From an uncultured Clostridia bacterium (GTDB lineage Bacteria > Bacillota > Clostridia > Christensenellales > Borkfalkiaceae): DNA of 64,000 nt. The notes beneath the pieces were generated by a model. The model saw only the letters and a program-made list of their open reading frames with translations, had not been told where the DNA came from and made no database searches. Location: the NCBI GenBank assembly GCA_944368925.1, contig CALVXG010000004.1:62001-126000 (forward strand). Reading direction: 5' to 3'. Shown one piece after another: positions 12,016 to 18,506 of the stretch; the first letter of the stretch is position 1, and the number at the start of each line of letters is the position of its first letter. Made by a program: the position numbers and the translations under genes.

Positions 12016-12894
12016 TTACAAGGCGGAATTTTTTTCGCCGTACACCGAGAGAGCGATAAGCATTTCGCGCACGATCTTGCAGGCGACGGCGGTCGAAGCG
12101 CCGCTCTGGTCGTAATGCGGGGAGAGTTCGTTGACGTCCGCCGCCACGACGCGAAGGGAAGAGCAGGCCGAAGTCAGGGCGCGGCGGAGCGCGTCAAAGG
12201 TCACGCCGCCCGGTTCGGGGGTTCCCGTCCCCGGGAATACGGAAGGATCCAGAACGTCCAGATCGACCGTCAGATACACGGGCTTTCCGCGAAGGGCGGT
12301 GAGGGTATCTTCCAGGCCGTCCAAATCGAATTTGTGCGTAAAGACGTGTTCTTTGCCCCAGACAAATTCCGATTTGTCTCCCGAACGGATCCCGTACTGA
12401 AAGATTTTGCCGTCGCCGACGAGCTCGTGGCAGCGCCGCAGCACGCAGGCGTGGGACAGGCGCGCGCCGAGATAATCGTTGCGAAGGTCTGCGTGCGCGT
12501 CGAAGTGAAGAATGTGCAGGTCGGGGTATTTTTTGACCGCCGCACGCACGCTTCCGAGCGTCACGAGGTGTTCGCCGCCGATCAGAAAGGGGAGCTTCCC
12601 GTCCGATAAAATCGTCTTTGCGCGCTTTTCGATGTCCGCAAGGGCGATCTTCGCGTCGCCGAAACAAAGTTCGGGATCGCCGCTGTCAAAGACGGAAAAT
12701 TCCGAAAGCTCTCTGTCCTGGTATGGGGAATACAGTTCCAGACCGTACGATTCGCGGCGGATCGCCGCGCTCGCAAACCTCGTTCCGGGACGGAACGAGG
12801 TGGTGGAATCGAAGGGTGCGCCGAATAAGACGATTTTCGCGTCTTTGTAATCGGCGTCGCAGCCCATGAAAGTTTCAACGTTCTTTTTCAACAT
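12016..12894 (-). CDS. speB: Agmatinase-family ureohydrolase
   Basis: 292 residues from the ATG at 12894; a TTG two codons earlier is the alternative, and GAGGAG lies 10 nt upstream of the ATG. All binuclear manganese ligands of the arginase/agmatinase family are present: GGEH (H109), DAHAD (D132, H134, D136) and DLDVLDPS (D211, D213). It should hydrolyse agmatine to putrescine and urea in the cytoplasm. The start lies inside the 3' end of speE (20-nt overlap). Because the ureohydrolase family also includes aminopropylagmatine hydrolases, and both aminopropyl routes are encoded here, the true substrate could be an aminopropylated agmatine. Confidence 0.88.
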   Translation of the reverse strand: MLKKNVETFMGCDADYKDAKIVLFGAPFDSTTSFRPGTRFASAAIRRESYGLELYSPYQDRELSEFSVFDSGDPELCFGDAKIALADIEKRAKTILSDGKLPFLIGGEHLVTLGSVRAAVKKYPDLHILHFDAHADLRNDYLGARLSHACVLRRCHELVGDGKIFQYGIRSGDKSEFVWGKEHVFTHKFDLDGLEDTLTALRGKPVYLTVDLDVLDPSVFPGTGTPEPGGVTFDALRRALTSACSSLRVVAADVNELSPHYDQSGASTAVACKIVREMLIALSVYGEKNSAL

Positions 12895-13735
12895 CTTCAA
12901 GCATCTCCTCGACGTACGCGGGCAGGTAAAACGCGCCGCGGTGCAACGTCGTCGTATAATATTTGCATTTCAGACCCCGTGCGTTCCAGCGCGCCTCGTC
13001 CAGATCGCGCAGGGGGTGATACTTCTTCGTGGAAAACCCGAACAGCCAATGCCCCGACGGATAGGTCGGAATGTGCGCCTGGTAAATGCGCGAAAAGGGG
13101 AACGATTCGATGATCCGCTTGTGCGCGCGCTGCATGGCGAGCGCGTCCTGTTCGTAAAAGGGGCTTTCGTGCTGGTTGACCATGATCCCGTCCTCATGCA
13201 GGGCTTTAAAGCAGCTCCCGTAAAATTCGCGGGAAAAAAGTCCCTCGCCCGGGCCGAACGGATCGGTGGAGTCTACGATGATCAGATCGTATTCGTCCTT
13301 TTTGCGGCGGATAAATTTGAGTCCGTCCTGTATGTATATGTTCACGCGCGGGTCGCCCATCTTGCAGGAAGTAAAGGGCAGGTATTCCTTGCTCGCTTCG
13401 ATGACTTCCTCGTCGATCTCCACAAGATCGATGCGCCCGATCTCGGGATAGCGCGTCAGCTCGCGGATCACGCCGCCGTCGCCCGCGCCGATGACCAGCA
13501 CGTCTTTCACGTGCGGATGCACCGCCATCGGCACGTGCGTGATCATTTCATGGTAGATAAATTCGTCTTTCTCGGTGAGCATGAGATATCCGTCCAGCAC
13601 CAGAATGCGCCCGAACGCGGGCGTATCGAAAATATCGATGCGCTGGTAATCGCTCGTCGCGCTGTATACCTGCTTGTCCACGCGGATGCTCAGCTTTACG
13701 TCGTTGGTGTGTTTTTCGGAAAACCAAAAATCCAT
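12875..13735 (-). CDS. speE: Spermidine synthase (polyamine aminopropyltransferase)
   Basis: 286 residues from the ATG at 13735, with AAGGAG 9 nt upstream; the frame's earlier start at 13765 has no such site. The short N-terminal beta domain is followed by the aminopropyltransferase Rossmann domain: VIGAGDGGVIRE (81-92) binds decarboxylated SAM, and DSTDPFGPGEGL contains the catalytic aspartates. It moves the aminopropyl group from decarboxylated SAM to putrescine, yielding spermidine and methylthioadenosine. It is flanked by speA upstream and the agmatinase-like gene downstream. Family members can also accept cadaverine or agmatine. Confidence 0.93.
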   Translation of the reverse strand: MDFWFSEKHTNDVKLSIRVDKQVYSATSDYQRIDIFDTPAFGRILVLDGYLMLTEKDEFIYHEMITHVPMAVHPHVKDVLVIGAGDGGVIRELTRYPEIGRIDLVEIDEEVIEASKEYLPFTSCKMGDPRVNIYIQDGLKFIRRKKDEYDLIIVDSTDPFGPGEGLFSREFYGSCFKALHEDGIMVNQHESPFYEQDALAMQRAHKRIIESFPFSRIYQAHIPTYPSGHWLFGFSTKKYHPLRDLDEARWNARGLKCKYYTTTLHRGAFYLPAYVEEMLEDVEKER

Positions 13736-13801: not shown

Positions 13802-15253
13802 TCATTCGATCAGCACGTTCAGCCGTTCGATTTTCGCGTTTTCGGGGCCTGTCAGCTGGCAGCCCTTTTCCTTTGCGTAGCGTATGTATTCGAGAATTTT
13901 TTCCGTCACGCGTTCGCCCGGCGCCAAAATGGGAATGCCGGGGGGATAGCACATGACAAATTCGCTGCACACCCGACCCGCGGTTTCCTCGATGGGCAGC
14001 GATTCTTTGGGCGCATAGAACGCAAACTGCGGCGTCACCGCAACGTCGGGGGCGATGTATTCGTTTTCCATCATGCCCGTGCGGTCTTTGGAATACAGCC
14101 TTCCGATCTCGCTGAGCGCGGAAACCAGCCGCTCCACGTCGCGGCGCCTGTCGCCGATCGAAAGGTAGGCGAGAATGTTTCCCAAATCCCCGAATTCGAT
14201 CTGAATATCGTATTCGTCGCGCAAAATGTCGTACACTTCGATGCCCGCAAGCCCTAAATCGAGCGTATGCACGGAAAGTTTGGTCTGGTCAAAATCGAAT
14301 ACGCTGTCCCCGTTTATAAGCTCTTTGGAAAAGGCGTACCACCCGCCCAAATCGTTGATCTCCTCGCGCGCATAGTCGGCAAGGTCGCATACGCCGTCAA
14401 ACGCCTGCTTCCCGCGCAGGGCAAGGTTTCGGCGCGAAATGTCCAGACTGGATAAGAGAAGATAACTCGCGCTCGTCGTCTGCGTGAGGTTGATGATCTG
14501 CCGCACATGGTCGGCGTTGACCCGCGGCCCCGCCAGAAGCAGGGAACTCTGCGTCAGGCTCCCGCCCGATTTGTGCATGGAGACCGCCGCCATGTCCGCG
14601 CCCGCCGCCATGGCGGAAACGGGAAGATTTTCCCCGAAATAAAAGTGCGTTCCGTGCGCTTCGTCCGCAAGCACGAGCATGTTGTGCCTGTGCGCCAGCT
14701 CCACGATCGAACGAAGATCCGAACAGATCCCGTAATAAGTGGGATTGTTGACGAGAATGGCTTTCGCGTCGGGGTTGCTCTCGATGGTGCTTTTCAGCTG
14801 CGCAAGGCTCATGCCGAGCGGAATGCCCAGCCTTGTGTCGCATTCGGGGTTTACGTACACGGGGATCGCCCCGCAAAGCACAAGCGCCCCCATCACGCTG
14901 CGGTGTACGTTGCGCGGCAGAATGATCTTTTGCCCCGCCTGCACCACGGACATGACCATGCTCTGCACCGCAGACGTCGTGCCCCCGACCATCAAAAAGG
15001 CGTTTGCCGCACCGAACGCGTCGGCGGCAAGTTTTTCCGCGTCGCGTATCACGGATACCGGATGACACAGATTGTCCAAAGGCTTCATGGAATTTACGTC
15101 CATGCTCACGCACTTTTCCCCCAACAGGCGCGCAAGTTCGGGGTTGCCTCTGCCGCGCTTGTGCCCCGGTACGTCAAAGGGTACGACCCGCATTTTTCCG
15201 AATCGGTCGAGCGCTTCGTAAATGGGCGCCCTCTGTTGTGCTTCAAGATCCAT
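13802..15253 (-). CDS. speA: Biosynthetic-type arginine decarboxylase, aspartate-aminotransferase fold
   Basis: 483 residues from the ATG at 15253 (AAGGAG 6 nt upstream). It belongs to the fold-I Orn/Lys/Arg decarboxylase family of the short Gram-positive type: FDVPGHKRG (26-34), LADEAHGTHF with the PLP-binding D197, and SMHKSGGS with the PLP lysine K228. It lacks the N-terminal wing domain of the E. coli inducible enzymes. In Bacillus the equivalent enzyme decarboxylates arginine to agmatine. With a ureohydrolase and spermidine synthase downstream, arginine is the best substrate guess; lysine or ornithine cannot be excluded from motifs alone. Confidence 0.88.
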   Translation of the reverse strand: MDLEAQQRAPIYEALDRFGKMRVVPFDVPGHKRGRGNPELARLLGEKCVSMDVNSMKPLDNLCHPVSVIRDAEKLAADAFGAANAFLMVGGTTSAVQSMVMSVVQAGQKIILPRNVHRSVMGALVLCGAIPVYVNPECDTRLGIPLGMSLAQLKSTIESNPDAKAILVNNPTYYGICSDLRSIVELAHRHNMLVLADEAHGTHFYFGENLPVSAMAAGADMAAVSMHKSGGSLTQSSLLLAGPRVNADHVRQIINLTQTTSASYLLLSSLDISRRNLALRGKQAFDGVCDLADYAREEINDLGGWYAFSKELINGDSVFDFDQTKLSVHTLDLGLAGIEVYDILRDEYDIQIEFGDLGNILAYLSIGDRRRDVERLVSALSEIGRLYSKDRTGMMENEYIAPDVAVTPQFAFYAPKESLPIEETAGRVCSEFVMCYPPGIPILAPGERVTEKILEYIRYAKEKGCQLTGPENAKIERLNVLIE

Positions 15254-15462
15254 CGCAGTCTCCTTCTTTCTTATACGTTTCCGCATCGGAAACGTGCGCC
15301 GCATGCGGCCGCAATCTGCGCGCGGGAAATGCTTTGCCCGCGCACTCGTATTTTAAGTTTCTCAATGATTTTGTTCCCCGCAAGGGGAAGAGCGGAACGC
15401 TTTTCCCGCAAAATTCCGCGGGCGCGGTTTTTGCAAAGACAGGCTTTGCGGGAGTTTGCCGC
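15254..15462 (-). other. Structured spacer between speD and speA
   Basis: 209 nt on the transcribed strand with several short hairpins, including CGTTTCCG/CGGAAACG (15271-15291) just ahead of the speA ribosome-binding site and a GCGCGGG/CCCGCGC pair (about 15319-15343). No T-tract follows them, so they may protect or tune the mRNA rather than terminate it. No gene is visible. Confidence 0.4.
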
Positions 15463-16221
15463 TCAATAAATGTTTCTCCCGTTGAAGATTTCGATCATTT
15501 CCTTTCGCAGGCTGTCGAGAATCTCCTGCTTTCTTGCGGGGGGAAGCTCTTCGGCATTCTGGTTGAACAGATAATTTTTCAGATCGATCTCCCGCAGCAG
15601 CATTTTGGTGTGGAAGATATTGGCGGAATAGACGTTCACGTCGATGGCGTCGTATTTTTGCAGGGTGGGTTGGGAAATAAAATTCTGAATGGAATTGATT
15701 TTCAGATCGTTGAAAATTTTCCGTCCGTCCATGCTGCGCGTAAAGCCGCGGACGCGGTAGTCCATGGTGATGATGTCCGAATCGAACGACCCGATCAGAT
15801 AGTCGAGCGTGGAAAGAGGGGTGATCGTGCCGCAGGTCGCCACGTCGATATCCACGCGGAAAGTCGCCAGCGACGTTTCGGGGTGGTATTCGGGATAGGT
15901 ATGGACGGTCACGTGGCTCTTGTCTAGATGCGCCACCTGCGTTTTTCCCTCGACGGGGATCATGGCAAGATCGGAGATGAGAAGCGTCACCGACGCCCCC
16001 TGCGGTTCGTAATCTTGGCCCGAAATGTTTAAAACCTTCGCCCCGATCATGGAAGTAAGGTTGGTCAATATCTCCGTTAAGCGCTTGGAATTGTATTGAT
16101 GGTCGATGTACGATATGTATTCTTTCTTTTCCTGCGGGGTCTTCGCATAGCAGATATCGTAAATATTGAAGCTGAGCGACTTCGTAAGATTGTTGAATCC
16201 GTACAATTTTAGCTTTCTCAT
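15463..16221 (-). CDS. speD: S-adenosylmethionine decarboxylase proenzyme, E. coli type
   Basis: 252 residues from [10 protein letters not shown] at 16221. [16 protein letters not shown] holds the self-cleavage site before S102, which becomes the pyruvoyl cofactor. The downstream [16 protein letters not shown] and [14 protein letters not shown] segments match the long E. coli-type enzyme rather than the short Bacillus form. It makes decarboxylated SAM, the aminopropyl donor for SpeE. No strong Shine-Dalgarno site precedes the ATG. It heads the operon, behind a leader of about 330 nt that contains two intrinsic terminators, so its expression is probably controlled by attenuation. Confidence 0.93.
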
Positions 16222-16247
16222 GGCAGTACCGTCCGTAAAAATGACAT

Positions 16248-16277
16248 AAAAAAAGGATAAAGCAAACCGCTTTATCC
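16248..16277 (-). terminator. Terminator 2 in the speD leader
   Basis: On the minus strand, GGATAAAGC pairs with GCTTTATCC (9 bp, 5-nt loop) and is followed by seven T (16254-16248). It stands only 27 nt upstream of the speD start codon, so it must be regulated or leaky. Confidence 0.8.
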
Positions 16278-16316
16278 TGTAAATGTCGTAATACACCCGT
16301 TCTTCTCAGGACATAC

Positions 16317-16350
16317 AAAAAAGCGTCCCATAGCAAATACGTATGCGCTT
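16317..16350 (-). terminator. Terminator 1 in the speD leader
   Basis: On the minus strand, AAGCG plus CATA pairs with TATG plus CGCTT around a small bulge, followed by six T (16322-16317). It is weaker than the second hairpin; together they form a tandem attenuator. Confidence 0.6.
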
Positions 16351-16560
16351 ATTGACCGTTTCACAAGTTTTGTGCGGATCGCACCGGTTATAAAGTAACC
16401 AACTTATAAAATTTGAGCTTTTAACTCAATCAATAAGGCGGTAAAACCGCCGATCGGCATTCGACCCGGCTGTCCGTATGGCCTCAACCCGTTGGGGTGG
16501 TCGGTATTTGCATGTGACTTCTCTCCGGTATCCCTTCAACAAAAATCCATTGCATTTTGA

Positions 16561-16589
16561 ATTATACGGAATTTTCACCGTTCTGTCAA
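16561..16589 (-). promoter_or_regulatory. Consensus promoter of the polyamine operon
   Basis: On the minus strand: TTGACA (16589-16584), a 17-nt spacer and TATAAT (16566-16561). A perfect match to the housekeeping consensus, placed 340 nt upstream of the first start codon. Confidence 0.85.
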
Positions 16590-16628
16590 ACATTCCGAAG
16601 CCGTTTTTCGGGAAAATTTGCCGCACGG

Positions 16629-16656
16629 TTGACTTTTTTCCGTATTTTGCTATACT
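16629..16656 (+). promoter_or_regulatory. Promoter of the DUF1294 gene
   Basis: TTGACT (16629-16634), a 16-nt spacer and TATACT (16651-16656). A GGGCGGG/CCCGCCC hairpin (about 16689-16708) lies in the leader. It diverges from the speD promoter. Confidence 0.7.
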
Positions 16657-16780
16657 GATACCCGAGAAACCGTTTCTTTGCAAAAAAGCGGGCGGGCAAA
16701 CCCGCCCGAAAAATCTGCCGAAAAAGCGCGGAAAGAAACGGAAAAGAGCGCCCGCCTATGTTGCGGGCAGAGGAGGAGTT

Positions 16781-17056
16781 ATGGAGGCCTGGAAAATTTA
16801 TTTGTGCGTGATCGCCGTCATCTCGCTGATCGCTTTTTTCCTGTACGCTTCGGATAAGGCCAAGGCAAAGAGAGGTGCGTGGCGCATTCCCGAAAAAGTA
16901 TTGCTCGGTTTTTCTTTTTTCGGGGGAGCCGTCGGCGGTACGCTCGCCATGTTTCTGTTTCGCCATAAAACCAGGCACTGGTACTTCTGGGCCGTCAATT
17001 TTCTGGGCCTTGCCTGGCAGATCGCGGCGCTCGTTCTGATCGTTTTATATCTGTAA
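16781..17056 (+). CDS. DUF1294 membrane protein
   Basis: 91 residues starting at MEAWKIYLCVIAV, with AGGAGGAG immediately upstream. Three hydrophobic segments (about 5-23, 43-60 and 70-90) surround the family signature KRGAWRIPEKVLLGFSFFGGAVGG and RHKTRHWYF. DUF1294 proteins are small integral membrane proteins of unknown function, found across Firmicutes. It has its own promoter and no partner gene. I see no terminator immediately behind it. Confidence 0.85.
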   Translation: MEAWKIYLCVIAVISLIAFFLYASDKAKAKRGAWRIPEKVLLGFSFFGGAVGGTLAMFLFRHKTRHWYFWAVNFLGLAWQIAALVLIVLYL

Positions 17057-17175
17057 AATCGGGAGAGATTTCCCGCGCGGTCGTTTGCCGTTTGAGACAA
17101 ATCGCCCGCGCTGGCAGCCGTAATTTCCGAAAAACTTATTCGGCCCAAGCCTGTCGCAAACGCGGAACCTTGCCC

Positions 17176-17265
17176 CGCGCGGGCGCGTCGCGGTTGCCAA
17201 AAGGTATGTGCGGCTTGGGTCTGCCGTTATTCCCGAACAGTTCGCGCGGGCGCGTCGCGGTTGCC
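17176..17265 (+). repeat. 23-bp direct repeat in a GC-rich spacer
   Basis: The element GCGGGCGCGTCGCGGTTGCC (with three further matching bases at its 5' end) occurs at 17176-17198 and 17243-17265, period 67. The surrounding 300 nt between the DUF1294 gene and the GntR promoter contain other partial copies but no credible gene. Confidence 0.6.
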
Positions 17266-17351
17266 GAAGCGCTTGCCTTGCGCGGGCCGATTGTAATTTA
17301 TGAACCGTTCGCCCTGTTGGGAGCCATGCACAAAAATTTTTTATTTAGGGC

Positions 17352-17455
17352 TTGACAAAGCGCAGAATCTGTGCTATGCTTGTATCAGTCAAGTAGTACA
17401 ACGCACCGCGTGCGTTCTTTTTTTCGGCACATATTGTACTATTCAGGTAGTACAA
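17352..17455 (+). promoter_or_regulatory. Promoter and two matched GntR/YtrA-type operators
   Basis: TTGACA (17352-17357), a 17-nt spacer and TATGCT (17375-17380). Operator 1 (17380-17401) has arms TTGTATCA and TAGTACAA; operator 2 (17434-17455) has perfect arms TTGTACTA and TAGTACAA. Both have 8-bp arms and a 6-nt spacer. Operator 1 covers the transcription start. Between them lies a small CGCAC/GTGCG hairpin followed by a T-rich run, possibly a weak attenuator. The GntR protein encoded just downstream is the obvious ligand. Confidence 0.8.
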
Positions 17456-17471
17456 TAATGAGGAGACAAGG

Positions 17472-17834
17472 ATGAATTTCAAGAGCAACGAAACGATTTA
17501 TTCGCAGATAACTGAATATATCAAGAAGCAGATCTTTTCGGGCTCATACGGATGCGGGACGCGGCTGCCGGCGATACGGGATTTGGCGGTGAAGTGTCGG
17601 GTGAATCCGAACACGATCGTGCGGGTGTATGCGGAGCTTTCGGAGGAGAAGCTGATATACACGGACAGCACGAACGGGAAGTTTGTGACGGCGGATGCGG
17701 AATTCATAGCGCAAAAGAAGCGTGCGTTTCTGGAAGAGAAAGCGGCGGCGTTTGCGGGAGAGATGCGGGAAGCGGGGCTTGACGGCGAAGAAGTGACGAA
17801 GATGTTGCAGGAAGTGTTCCGTAAGGGGCAATGA
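17472..17834 (+). CDS. GntR-family transcriptional regulator, YtrA subfamily
   Basis: 120 residues. The winged HTH occupies residues 8-75 (IYSQITEYIKKQIFSG, then GTRLPAIRDLAVKCRVNPNTIVRVYAEL and the wing). Only about 45 residues of helix follow, far too short for a ligand-binding domain; this is the YtrA architecture, whose members repress an adjacent ABC transporter operon in response to envelope-active compounds. The two dyads upstream and the ABC ATPase gene 9 nt downstream fit that model. GAGGAG precedes the ATG. The inducing signal is not visible. Confidence 0.9.
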   Translation: MNFKSNETIYSQITEYIKKQIFSGSYGCGTRLPAIRDLAVKCRVNPNTIVRVYAELSEEKLIYTDSTNGKFVTADAEFIAQKKRAFLEEKAAAFAGEMREAGLDGEEVTKMLQEVFRKGQ

Positions 17835-17843
17835 GGAGAGGAG

Positions 17844-18506
17844 ATGAAAGAGTACAAGATCAGCGGGATCGAAAAGCGGTACGGAAAGAAAGAGGTATTG
17901 TGTGGGGCGGACTTATGCGCAGAAGCGGGCAGTTTTGTGGGAATTTTAGGGCTGAACGGGACGGGCAAGACGACGCTTTTGAACATTTTGGGGAACGTAG
18001 ACCGCAATTTTACGGGGGAGATTTCCGTGCGGGGGAAGGACGTGGCGTATATGCGCACGCGCATGGCCTTTCCCGAATGGCGCAAGGTGAAAGAACTGTT
18101 GGATTTTTACGGCAGGTTTTACAAATTTGACCGTAAAAAGGCGGAACGTATGTTGGAAAACACGTCGATACGCAAGAATGCGCGGCTGCGTGCGCTGAGT
18201 GCGGGAATGCAGCGGCAGATCAATTTCATATGCAATTTTTGTGTAGATTCGCAGGTTTTGCTTTTGGACGAACCGCTGACGAATCTGGATCTTGTTTTTC
18301 GCGGGGTGATCGTGGATTCGCTGATTGAGCGGGCGATGGAGGAGCGCGTGATCGTCGTGGCGACGCATGAGATCAAGGAATTTGAAAACCTGTTTACCCA
18401 TGTGACGGTGCTCAAAGACGGGTTGCTCGGGCCGCTTACGGATGTGGAGGAGCTGCGCGGGCGCGGGATGAGTGTGGAAGAGTTTTACGGGGGTAGCCTG
18501 CAATGA
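17844..18506 (+). CDS. ABC transporter ATP-binding protein
   Basis: 220 residues, one nucleotide-binding domain. Walker A is GLNGTGKTT (36-44), the signature is LSAGMQRQ, Walker B is VLLLDEPLTNLD, and the switch histidine lies in VVATHEIKEFE. The signature is degenerate (LSxGMxRQ), as in YtrB/BcrA-like ATPases. It is expected to energise the permease encoded next, which overlaps it by 4 nt (ATGA). Substrate unknown; in YtrA-controlled operons these systems often relate to cell-wall stress. Confidence 0.9.
   Translation: MKEYKISGIEKRYGKKEVLCGADLCAEAGSFVGILGLNGTGKTTLLNILGNVDRNFTGEISVRGKDVAYMRTRMAFPEWRKVKELLDFYGRFYKFDRKKAERMLENTSIRKNARLRALSAGMQRQINFICNFCVDSQVLLLDEPLTNLDLVFRGVIVDSLIERAMEERVIVVATHEIKEFENLFTHVTVLKDGLLGPLTDVEELRGRGMSVEEFYGGSLQ

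Follow-up and report, generated by a model that had tools for sequence, protein, structure and literature searches.

Polyamines are abundant, bind RNA and have long been expected to have riboswitches. The accepted spermidine class, a variant of the SAM-I riboswitch, comprises 13 examples and acts as an OFF switch via termination; its authors state, in the accessible part of their report, that more such classes seem sure to await discovery (PMC10853860). A separate thread of earlier work concerns Streptococcus pneumoniae, for which a tiling array places between SP0915 and SP0916 a transcript, SN20, listed at 318 nt and with a promoter and a terminator predicted for it (PMC2887815), and for which the sRNA F59, detected by RNA-seq, maps between the same two genes (PMC3395615), upstream of SP_0916; the latter is an arginine decarboxylase (PMC7531197; all three sources as far as their accessible text goes). 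From its name and place, we infer that the Rfam entry SpF59 corresponds to this F59. Furthermore, a possible speD leader RNA of Bacillus subtilis is listed in the accessible text of PMC3574147.

The DNA analysed here, referred to as the window, is a stretch of 64 kb from an uncultured Clostridia bacterium. Its minus strand carries four polyamine genes behind a promoter and leader:

16561..16589, minus strand: promoter, TTGACA (16589-16584), 17 nt, TATAAT (16566-16561), a 12/12 match
16222..16553, minus strand: speD leader; inferred start about 7 nt past the -10 box, end one base before the ATG
15463..16221, minus strand: speD, adenosylmethionine decarboxylase (TIGR03331, above cut-off)
13802..15256, minus strand: speA-type amino acid decarboxylase of the Orn/Lys/Arg family (all listed NCBIfam matches below cut-off)
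12875..13735, minus strand: speE, polyamine aminopropyltransferase (above cut-off)
12016..12894, minus strand: speB, agmatinase (TIGR01230, above cut-off)

Together, speD-speA-speE-speB form a spermidine operon behind the leader. A first-pass annotation of this DNA had described a perfect promoter followed by about 330 nt of structured leader before speD, and both descriptions hold: the leader measures 332 nt from its predicted start to the speD ATG at 16221, and the promoter recurs with 11/12 or 12/12 matches, 55-96 nt 5' of the RNA core, in all 18 loci of the genus that share the window's 3' end (the window's copy included; hereafter the window's type). Counted over the whole of 15000-18500, promoter-like sites (6, compared with 2.8 +/- 1.9 in shuffles) and terminator-like sites (10, compared with 5.9 +/- 2.4) are only mildly in excess.

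The upstream half of the leader had been reported to match no recognizable riboswitch class. This is true of riboswitch classes as such, but the segment 16503-16454 matches the complete 54-nt model (positions 1-54) of the Rfam family RF02440 (SpF59 sRNA), scoring 65.8 bits where the gathering cut-off is 37.2. Across the 64-kb window, RF02440 is the only Rfam family at the gathering cut-off, with no T-box or other cis-regulator; within the leader, no SAM riboswitch family of Rfam matched, and SAM-I gave no match at E-values up to 5, up to 1 or at the gathering cut-off. Likewise, RF02440 was the sole family reaching its cut-off within the RNA of all 20 family loci scanned. A match to rli52 in one locus (L190; 23.4 bits against a cut-off of 70) did not recur at E-values up to 1 in four further loci and was dismissed as chance.

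Conservation, however, reaches far beyond RF02440: it extends about 120 nt further 3' and takes in a helix, P1, that joins the two ends. Comparison of the sequences indicates that RF02440 represents one optional domain (P2) within a conserved RNA. The latter measures about 170-200 nt and has helices P1-P8, which in the window are arranged as follows:

16504..16511, minus strand: P1 5' strand GCAAAUAC, pairing with 16340-16333 (partner-swap test, 83 non-redundant loci)
16454..16503, minus strand: P2 domain, the RF02440 match, with GACC/GGUC, hairpin P2a, conserved GGCCAUACGGACAGCC and UGCCGA
16437..16451, minus strand: P3 hairpin GGCGG/CCGCC (alignments)
16428..16436, minus strand: P4 5' strand UUAUUGAUU, pairing with 16357-16349
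16415..16427, minus strand: P5 hairpin GAGU/GCUC (alignments)
16401..16407, minus strand: P6 5' strand AUAAGUU (alignments)
16386..16400, minus strand: P7 hairpin GGUUA/UAACC (alignments)
16372..16384, minus strand: P8 hairpin GUGC/GCAC (sequence and energy fold; variable in the family and omitted from the covariance models)
16363..16369, minus strand: P6 3' strand AACUUGU; in loci from other genera, the covarying partner of the terminator 5' arm
16349..16357, minus strand: P4 3' strand GGUCAAUAA (alignments)
16333..16340, minus strand: P1 3' strand GUAUUUGC (partner-swap test)

In this architecture, P1 (GCAAAUA/UAUUUGC) closes the RNA, P4 encloses P5 and P6, and P6 in turn encloses P7 and P8. 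The family was assembled as 161 loci, collected by RNA sequence alone and not by gene. A MAFFT consensus of the 155 loci with enough flank (153 of them distinct) is conserved, from 5' to 3', as GACC...GGCCAUACGGACAGCCGGGUC..UGCCGA, then the P3 hairpin, then UUAUUGAUUGAGUUAAAAGCUCAAAUUUUAUAAGUUGGUUACUU..AACC ahead of a variable hairpin, and lastly AACUUGUGAAACGGUCAAUAAGAGUAGUAAAAGU and ..UUGCUAUAUAGACUCUG. We therefore reject RF02440 as the whole functional unit, since conservation exceeds it on this scale and some members lack the P2 domain. A frame of 18 codons (MPIGG... in the window) can also be read in the conserved stretch that runs, in the window's genus, from AUGCCGAUCGGC to UUUUAUAA (16404-16460, minus strand). 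It is apparently a by-product of RNA conservation, because in other loci the frame is interrupted or begins, in many cases, with CTG or a different codon.

The proposed helices were examined for covariation, as the earlier annotation had suggested for the leaders of relatives, and compensatory change was found. When 100 copies (98 of the 161 loci plus L177 and L180) were aligned to our covariance model R1, an alignment that leans towards the model, 96.6% of cells were paired, compared with 88.3% in shuffles and 27-41% with slid partners, and 31 of 44 pairs had changes on both sides, compared with 12.4 in shuffles. In a MAFFT alignment of 48 sequences (A2), the corresponding figures were 96.4% and 15 of 44, neither of which was reached in any of 500 shuffles; this set and a second one of 45 (A4) were hand-picked for moderate length and clear ends. 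Most of the covariation is carried by P2, P2a, P3 and P5. P4 and P6 are nearly invariant, and because they are so conserved, no pair of either helix has both-side changes on A2 or A4, the alignments not fitted to the model. Since the register of P1 differs between groups and the helix is misregistered between them in the joint alignment A1, it was assessed by partner swapping, for which 142 loci had the anchor and flank: in 83 non-redundant loci of these, a locus's own strands paired at -17.4 kcal/mol, foreign strands at -13.3 +/- 0.39 kcal/mol, and the own partner reached the top 10% of partners in no more than 39 of the 83. In energy folding of the window's growing transcript, P1, P2, P2a and P4-P8 are present at lengths of 225-283 nt, and the minimum-energy fold of the full 332-nt leader keeps P5-P8 and loses P1 and P4. 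By these sequence comparisons, the leader contains a conserved, structured, aptamer-like domain.

The RNA is widespread and modular. A match to RF02440 occurs in 26 of the 101 relatives and in 18 of the 398 genomes of the phylum (own genome included); model R1 finds the RNA in 35 and 21 of these, respectively, i.e. in 9 and 3 more, and the core model R2, built without the P2 domain, in 20 of the 398. A single exact 19-mer occurs in at least 118 stretches of public genomes and metagenome-assembled genomes (MAGs), and the matches listed include Paenibacillus, Bacillus, Neobacillus, Faecalibacterium, Blautia, Gemmiger, Acidaminococcus, Phascolarctobacterium and many MAGs. Ten regions (L183-L192) were read individually, none of which matches RF02440 at E-values up to 10. 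Seven of them (L183-L188 and L190), all upstream of speD or speA, have, by eye, no RF02440 domain and retain P1, P3-P7 and a 3' element. In L191 and L192 the RF02440 domain is altered, and L189 is cut by a contig end. The window's type, with 18 loci, is the mirror case: the RF02440 domain is present, and both parts of the 3' element, GAGUAGUAAAAGU and CUAUAUAGACUCUG, are missing.

Several individual copies deserve mention. In one genome (G021), speD occurs twice, both times with an RNA copy of its own: L020 on contig C1 is of the window's type (P2 domain present, 3' element absent), L187 on contig C14 of the opposite type (P2 domain absent, 3' element present). Another speD leader (L182; G320:C60, 1501-1681), left out of the analysis at an E-value of 6.6e-4, has the 3' half only (AACUUGUGAAUUGGUCAAUAAGAGUAGUAAAAGU, UAUUUGCUAUAUAGACUCUG and a CGCAAGU terminator); its P4 is seemingly replaced by a new short helix, and it seems to be a natural minimal or a decayed version. 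Divergent copies upstream of speD in a Spirochaetes MAG (L090, with an altered P6, AUAAGCG/CGCUUGU) and a Synergistaceae MAG (L118) are labelled outside Bacillota and may reflect either a wider spread or mis-binned contigs. Finally, L053 is apparently truncated, and the P2 core of L026 carries unusual changes.

The genes downstream are almost without exception polyamine genes. By gene context, the 161 loci divide into 65 with speD, 44 with speA, 29 with a carboxyspermidine dehydrogenase (CASDH)-like and 16 with a potA-like gene, one unassigned (L054) and six with less than 600 nt of downstream sequence, so that 154 of the 155 loci with at least 600 nt have a polyamine gene downstream. These classes were assigned by tblastn with polyamine references only (E-value up to 1e-8, start within 1 kb), and the telling figure is therefore that just one of the 155 roomy loci lacks a match. 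The gene starts lie at most 644 nt from the RNA, with a mechanical open reading frame of at least 70 aa intervening in 9 of 154 cases. Read by eye, four potA loci continue with potB-, potC- and potD-like frames and six CASDH loci with nspC. NCBIfam models, applied to the four window proteins, L057, L046, L105, the potB and potD of L123 and the nspC of L088, were passed at their cut-offs by this nspC and by the potA of L046 and of L105; the tested CASDH (418 of 800 bits), speA, potB and potD were listed below their cut-offs, the L123 potB and potD having the models of those names as their best matches.

Within the window's genus, the speD in question is found in 22 of 40 genomes, all 22 of which carry the RNA; conservation of the leader among relatives, on which the first-pass annotation had made its reading depend, is thus observed. 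Five further genomes of the genus have the RNA without this speD, upstream of speA (L002, L005, L024, L188, L189), and the 13 genomes without the RNA are all also without speD. Among the 101 relatives, the RNA occurs somewhere in 27 of the 33 genomes with speD and is absent from six. At L018 (G061:C2), the RNA and CASDH are separated by a fragment resembling the start of speD, SGFNNLSKALSFDIY, which may be what is left of a speD that has decayed behind the switch.

The pairs speD-speE and CASDH-nspC represent alternative routes to spermidine, which have in common their product and the putrescine branch, not SAM or decarboxylated SAM; CASDH and nspC make (nor)spermidine without either of the latter, and potABCD imports spermidine and putrescine. 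As two spermidine routes and import stand behind one RNA, the signal should be spermidine rather than SAM. Judged from gene context, spermidine is the one signal to which all these genes should answer, with putrescine in second place.

The regulatory part of the leader comprises the following elements:

16248..16278, minus strand: intrinsic terminator AGGATAAAGC-GGTTT-GCTTTATCCT-TTTTTT, with a 10-bp stem, GGUUU loop and U tract
16317..16350, minus strand: weak candidate for a 'first terminator', -5.3 kcal/mol, with a long loop, overlapping the P1 3' strand
16276..16283, minus strand: candidate antiterminator strand UUUACAGG, overlapping the terminator arm, which could pair with CUUGUGAA at 16367-16360

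Two intrinsic terminators had originally been called, the first of them without a stated position; one of the two survives. The terminator at 16278-16248 is strong, with a stem of -12.8 kcal/mol, and has counterparts throughout the family: of the 142 leaders used for this control, 138 have a terminator-like hairpin in the interval from RNA to gene, compared with 41.5 expected from dinucleotide shuffles, at a median distance of 42 nt from the gene (138 terminators among 154 gene-assigned loci). By contrast, the upstream hairpin at 16350-16317 is weak and not conserved: a hairpin directly before a T run occurs at this place in 2 of the 18 loci of the window's type (the window, -5.3, and L011, -4.6 kcal/mol), and of the other 16, three have forms of -4.3 to -4.7 kcal/mol before a broken T run and 13 have none. 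This hairpin is probably not a terminator. A second candidate for the upstream position, the P3 hairpin at 16451-16437, is listed among the terminator-like sites, unlike the hairpin at 16350-16317, and has no continuous T run. Tandem terminators were accordingly rejected as a conserved feature.

Potential antiterminators were sought with an offset scan, in which the terminator 5' arm was paired with 14-nt windows along the RNA, comparing own with foreign arms and presetting no site. The 18 loci of the window's type were treated apart from the rest. In 66 non-redundant loci outside this type, the only region with |z| >2.5 was -30..0 from CAATAAG (best z -9.7), which is the P8/P6 3' strand. The P6 3' strand finds its best complement at the terminator 5' arm in 103 of 120 leaders outside the window's type, compared with 32.4 expected, and strand and arm change together, as in L043 (UCACUUG/CAAGUGA), L031 (ACACUUGU/AUGAGUGU) and L002 (AACUUGUG/CGCAAGUU). 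Because they share a strand, P6 and this antiterminator are mutually exclusive. Outside the window's genus, an antiterminator pattern is thus supported by covariation between the P6 3' strand and the terminator 5' arm.

Within the genus, the same P6-strand test is near chance (10 of 18, compared with 6.6 expected), and the offset scan of 11 loci places its best offset elsewhere, at +22 (z -2.5). The segment -30..-16 gives 16 of 18, compared with 9.9 expected, as the best of 19 segments tried; in this and the P6-strand test, the beginning of the stem was assigned manually for L001, L015 and L026. Swapping 15 arms, cut to 12 nt and with that of L015 hand-set, yields z -2.6 at -24 (5/500), uncorrected for about 65 offsets. 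In the window's own copy, GCGG (16270-16267) could additionally pair with CCGC (16377-16374), and the duplex of CUUGUGAA and CCGC with UUUACAGG and GCGG has a predicted energy of -13.0 kcal/mol. These results are only suggestive, and an antiterminator step is plausible in the window's genus.

Taken together, the leader is probably a cis-acting, transcription-terminating riboswitch of a candidate class, with spermidine or a close polyamine as its most likely ligand; spermidine itself, predicted from the genes, is the likely assignment. Binding of spermidine would stabilize the P4/P6 fold, and with P6 formed, its 3' strand could not open the terminator, so that transcription would stop (OFF). 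When spermidine is scarce, the P6 3' strand would instead pair with the terminator arm, no terminator would form, and speD-speA-speE-speB would be transcribed. In the window's own copy, this antiterminator step is extrapolated from the family, with only weak backing from the genus.

The same attenuator might respond to another metabolite, i.e. putrescine, agmatine, decarboxylated SAM, MTA or SAM, and as speD and speA make precursors and potABCD also imports putrescine, such a ligand would fit part of the pathway. We nevertheless hold this to be rather improbable, given the 29 CASDH-like and 16 potA-like loci, and given that CASDH and nspC work without SAM or decarboxylated SAM. For SAM in particular, the products of these genes do not use it and no SAM family matched the leader, and we thus disfavor it as the ligand; of the original proposal of a polyamine or SAM attenuator, the polyamine-pathway attenuator is well supported by gene context and the conserved terminator, while the SAM half is not. 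Somewhat less probable still is that the conserved RNA serves as the binding site of a polyamine-sensing regulatory protein that controls termination. A long conserved RNA with a terminator is also typical of protein-bound leaders and the same pattern could arise, but the complex, highly conserved, multi-branched fold is more typical of metabolite aptamers.

The type label of RF02440 ('Gene; sRNA') suggests a trans-acting small RNA, and short transcripts have been reported in S. pneumoniae (PMC3395615, PMC2887815; accessible text). This reading is very unlikely for the family at hand: the RNA lies upstream of, and co-directional with, a polyamine gene in 154 of 155 roomy loci, with a terminator-like hairpin at a median of 42 nt before the gene, and an attenuator would likewise yield a short terminated transcript. 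Leader-peptide attenuation or ribosome arrest, for which the stretch readable as 18 codons in the window's genus could be invoked, is scarcely credible and was rejected, as no short frame is conserved: among 158 loci, 69 have ATG at the 'start', 74 have CTG and 15 have AAG, ACG or AGG, and only 36 of the 158 have a frame of 15-25 codons from an ATG.

We lean, with some reservation, towards regarding the RNA as a second, independent and far more widespread natural class of spermidine riboswitch, about 200 nt long and modular, with an optional 5' domain (the SpF59 fragment) and P6 as the switching helix, that governs both synthesis routes and import across Bacillota. It precedes the genes of two spermidine routes and of polyamine import in common gut and soil genera (Faecalibacterium, Blautia, Paenibacillus, Bacillus), which makes the question of the ligand directly testable. 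No description of the full RNA was found in the open-access literature, our coverage of which was partial, so that it may have been noticed earlier; a search for terms in the accessible text of PMC11109978, PMC7266159, PMC6429828, PMC8040213 and PMC4438229 found no mention.

Compared with known systems, the leader is, by score, a member of RF02440 (SpF59 sRNA, 'ldcC RNA'), whose whole 54-nt model is matched by the window. This entry covers the P2 domain only and is typed as sRNA, not as cis-regulatory, unlike the leader RNA proposed here; the entry is thus fragmentary, its typing as sRNA is open to doubt, and what is catalogued as an 'sRNA' seems to be an optional part of a larger RNA with a cis-regulatory role. 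Other polyamine-linked leaders resemble it in part, as far as the accessible text of the respective reports goes. The odc1 motif is also a structured RNA upstream of an ornithine decarboxylase gene, but it is alpha-proteobacterial, consists of a hairpin and a pseudoknot, and is thought to act translationally with a uORF (PMC8632094). The Escherichia coli speFL arrest peptide (mentioned in PMC10319736) likewise exerts polyamine-linked leader control, but does so via a translated leader peptide, whereas the leader RNA family has no conserved peptide. A parallel in logic is the spermidine riboswitch, which, in the accessible part of its description, precedes polyamine biosynthesis genes in Gram-positive bacteria and turns expression OFF by termination with an alternative antiterminator, as we propose here (PMC10853860). 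Nevertheless, that riboswitch adopts the four-stem SAM-I fold, while the leader RNA has another sequence and fold, lies outside this known class and, with at least 118 stretches compared with 13 reported examples, is far more common.
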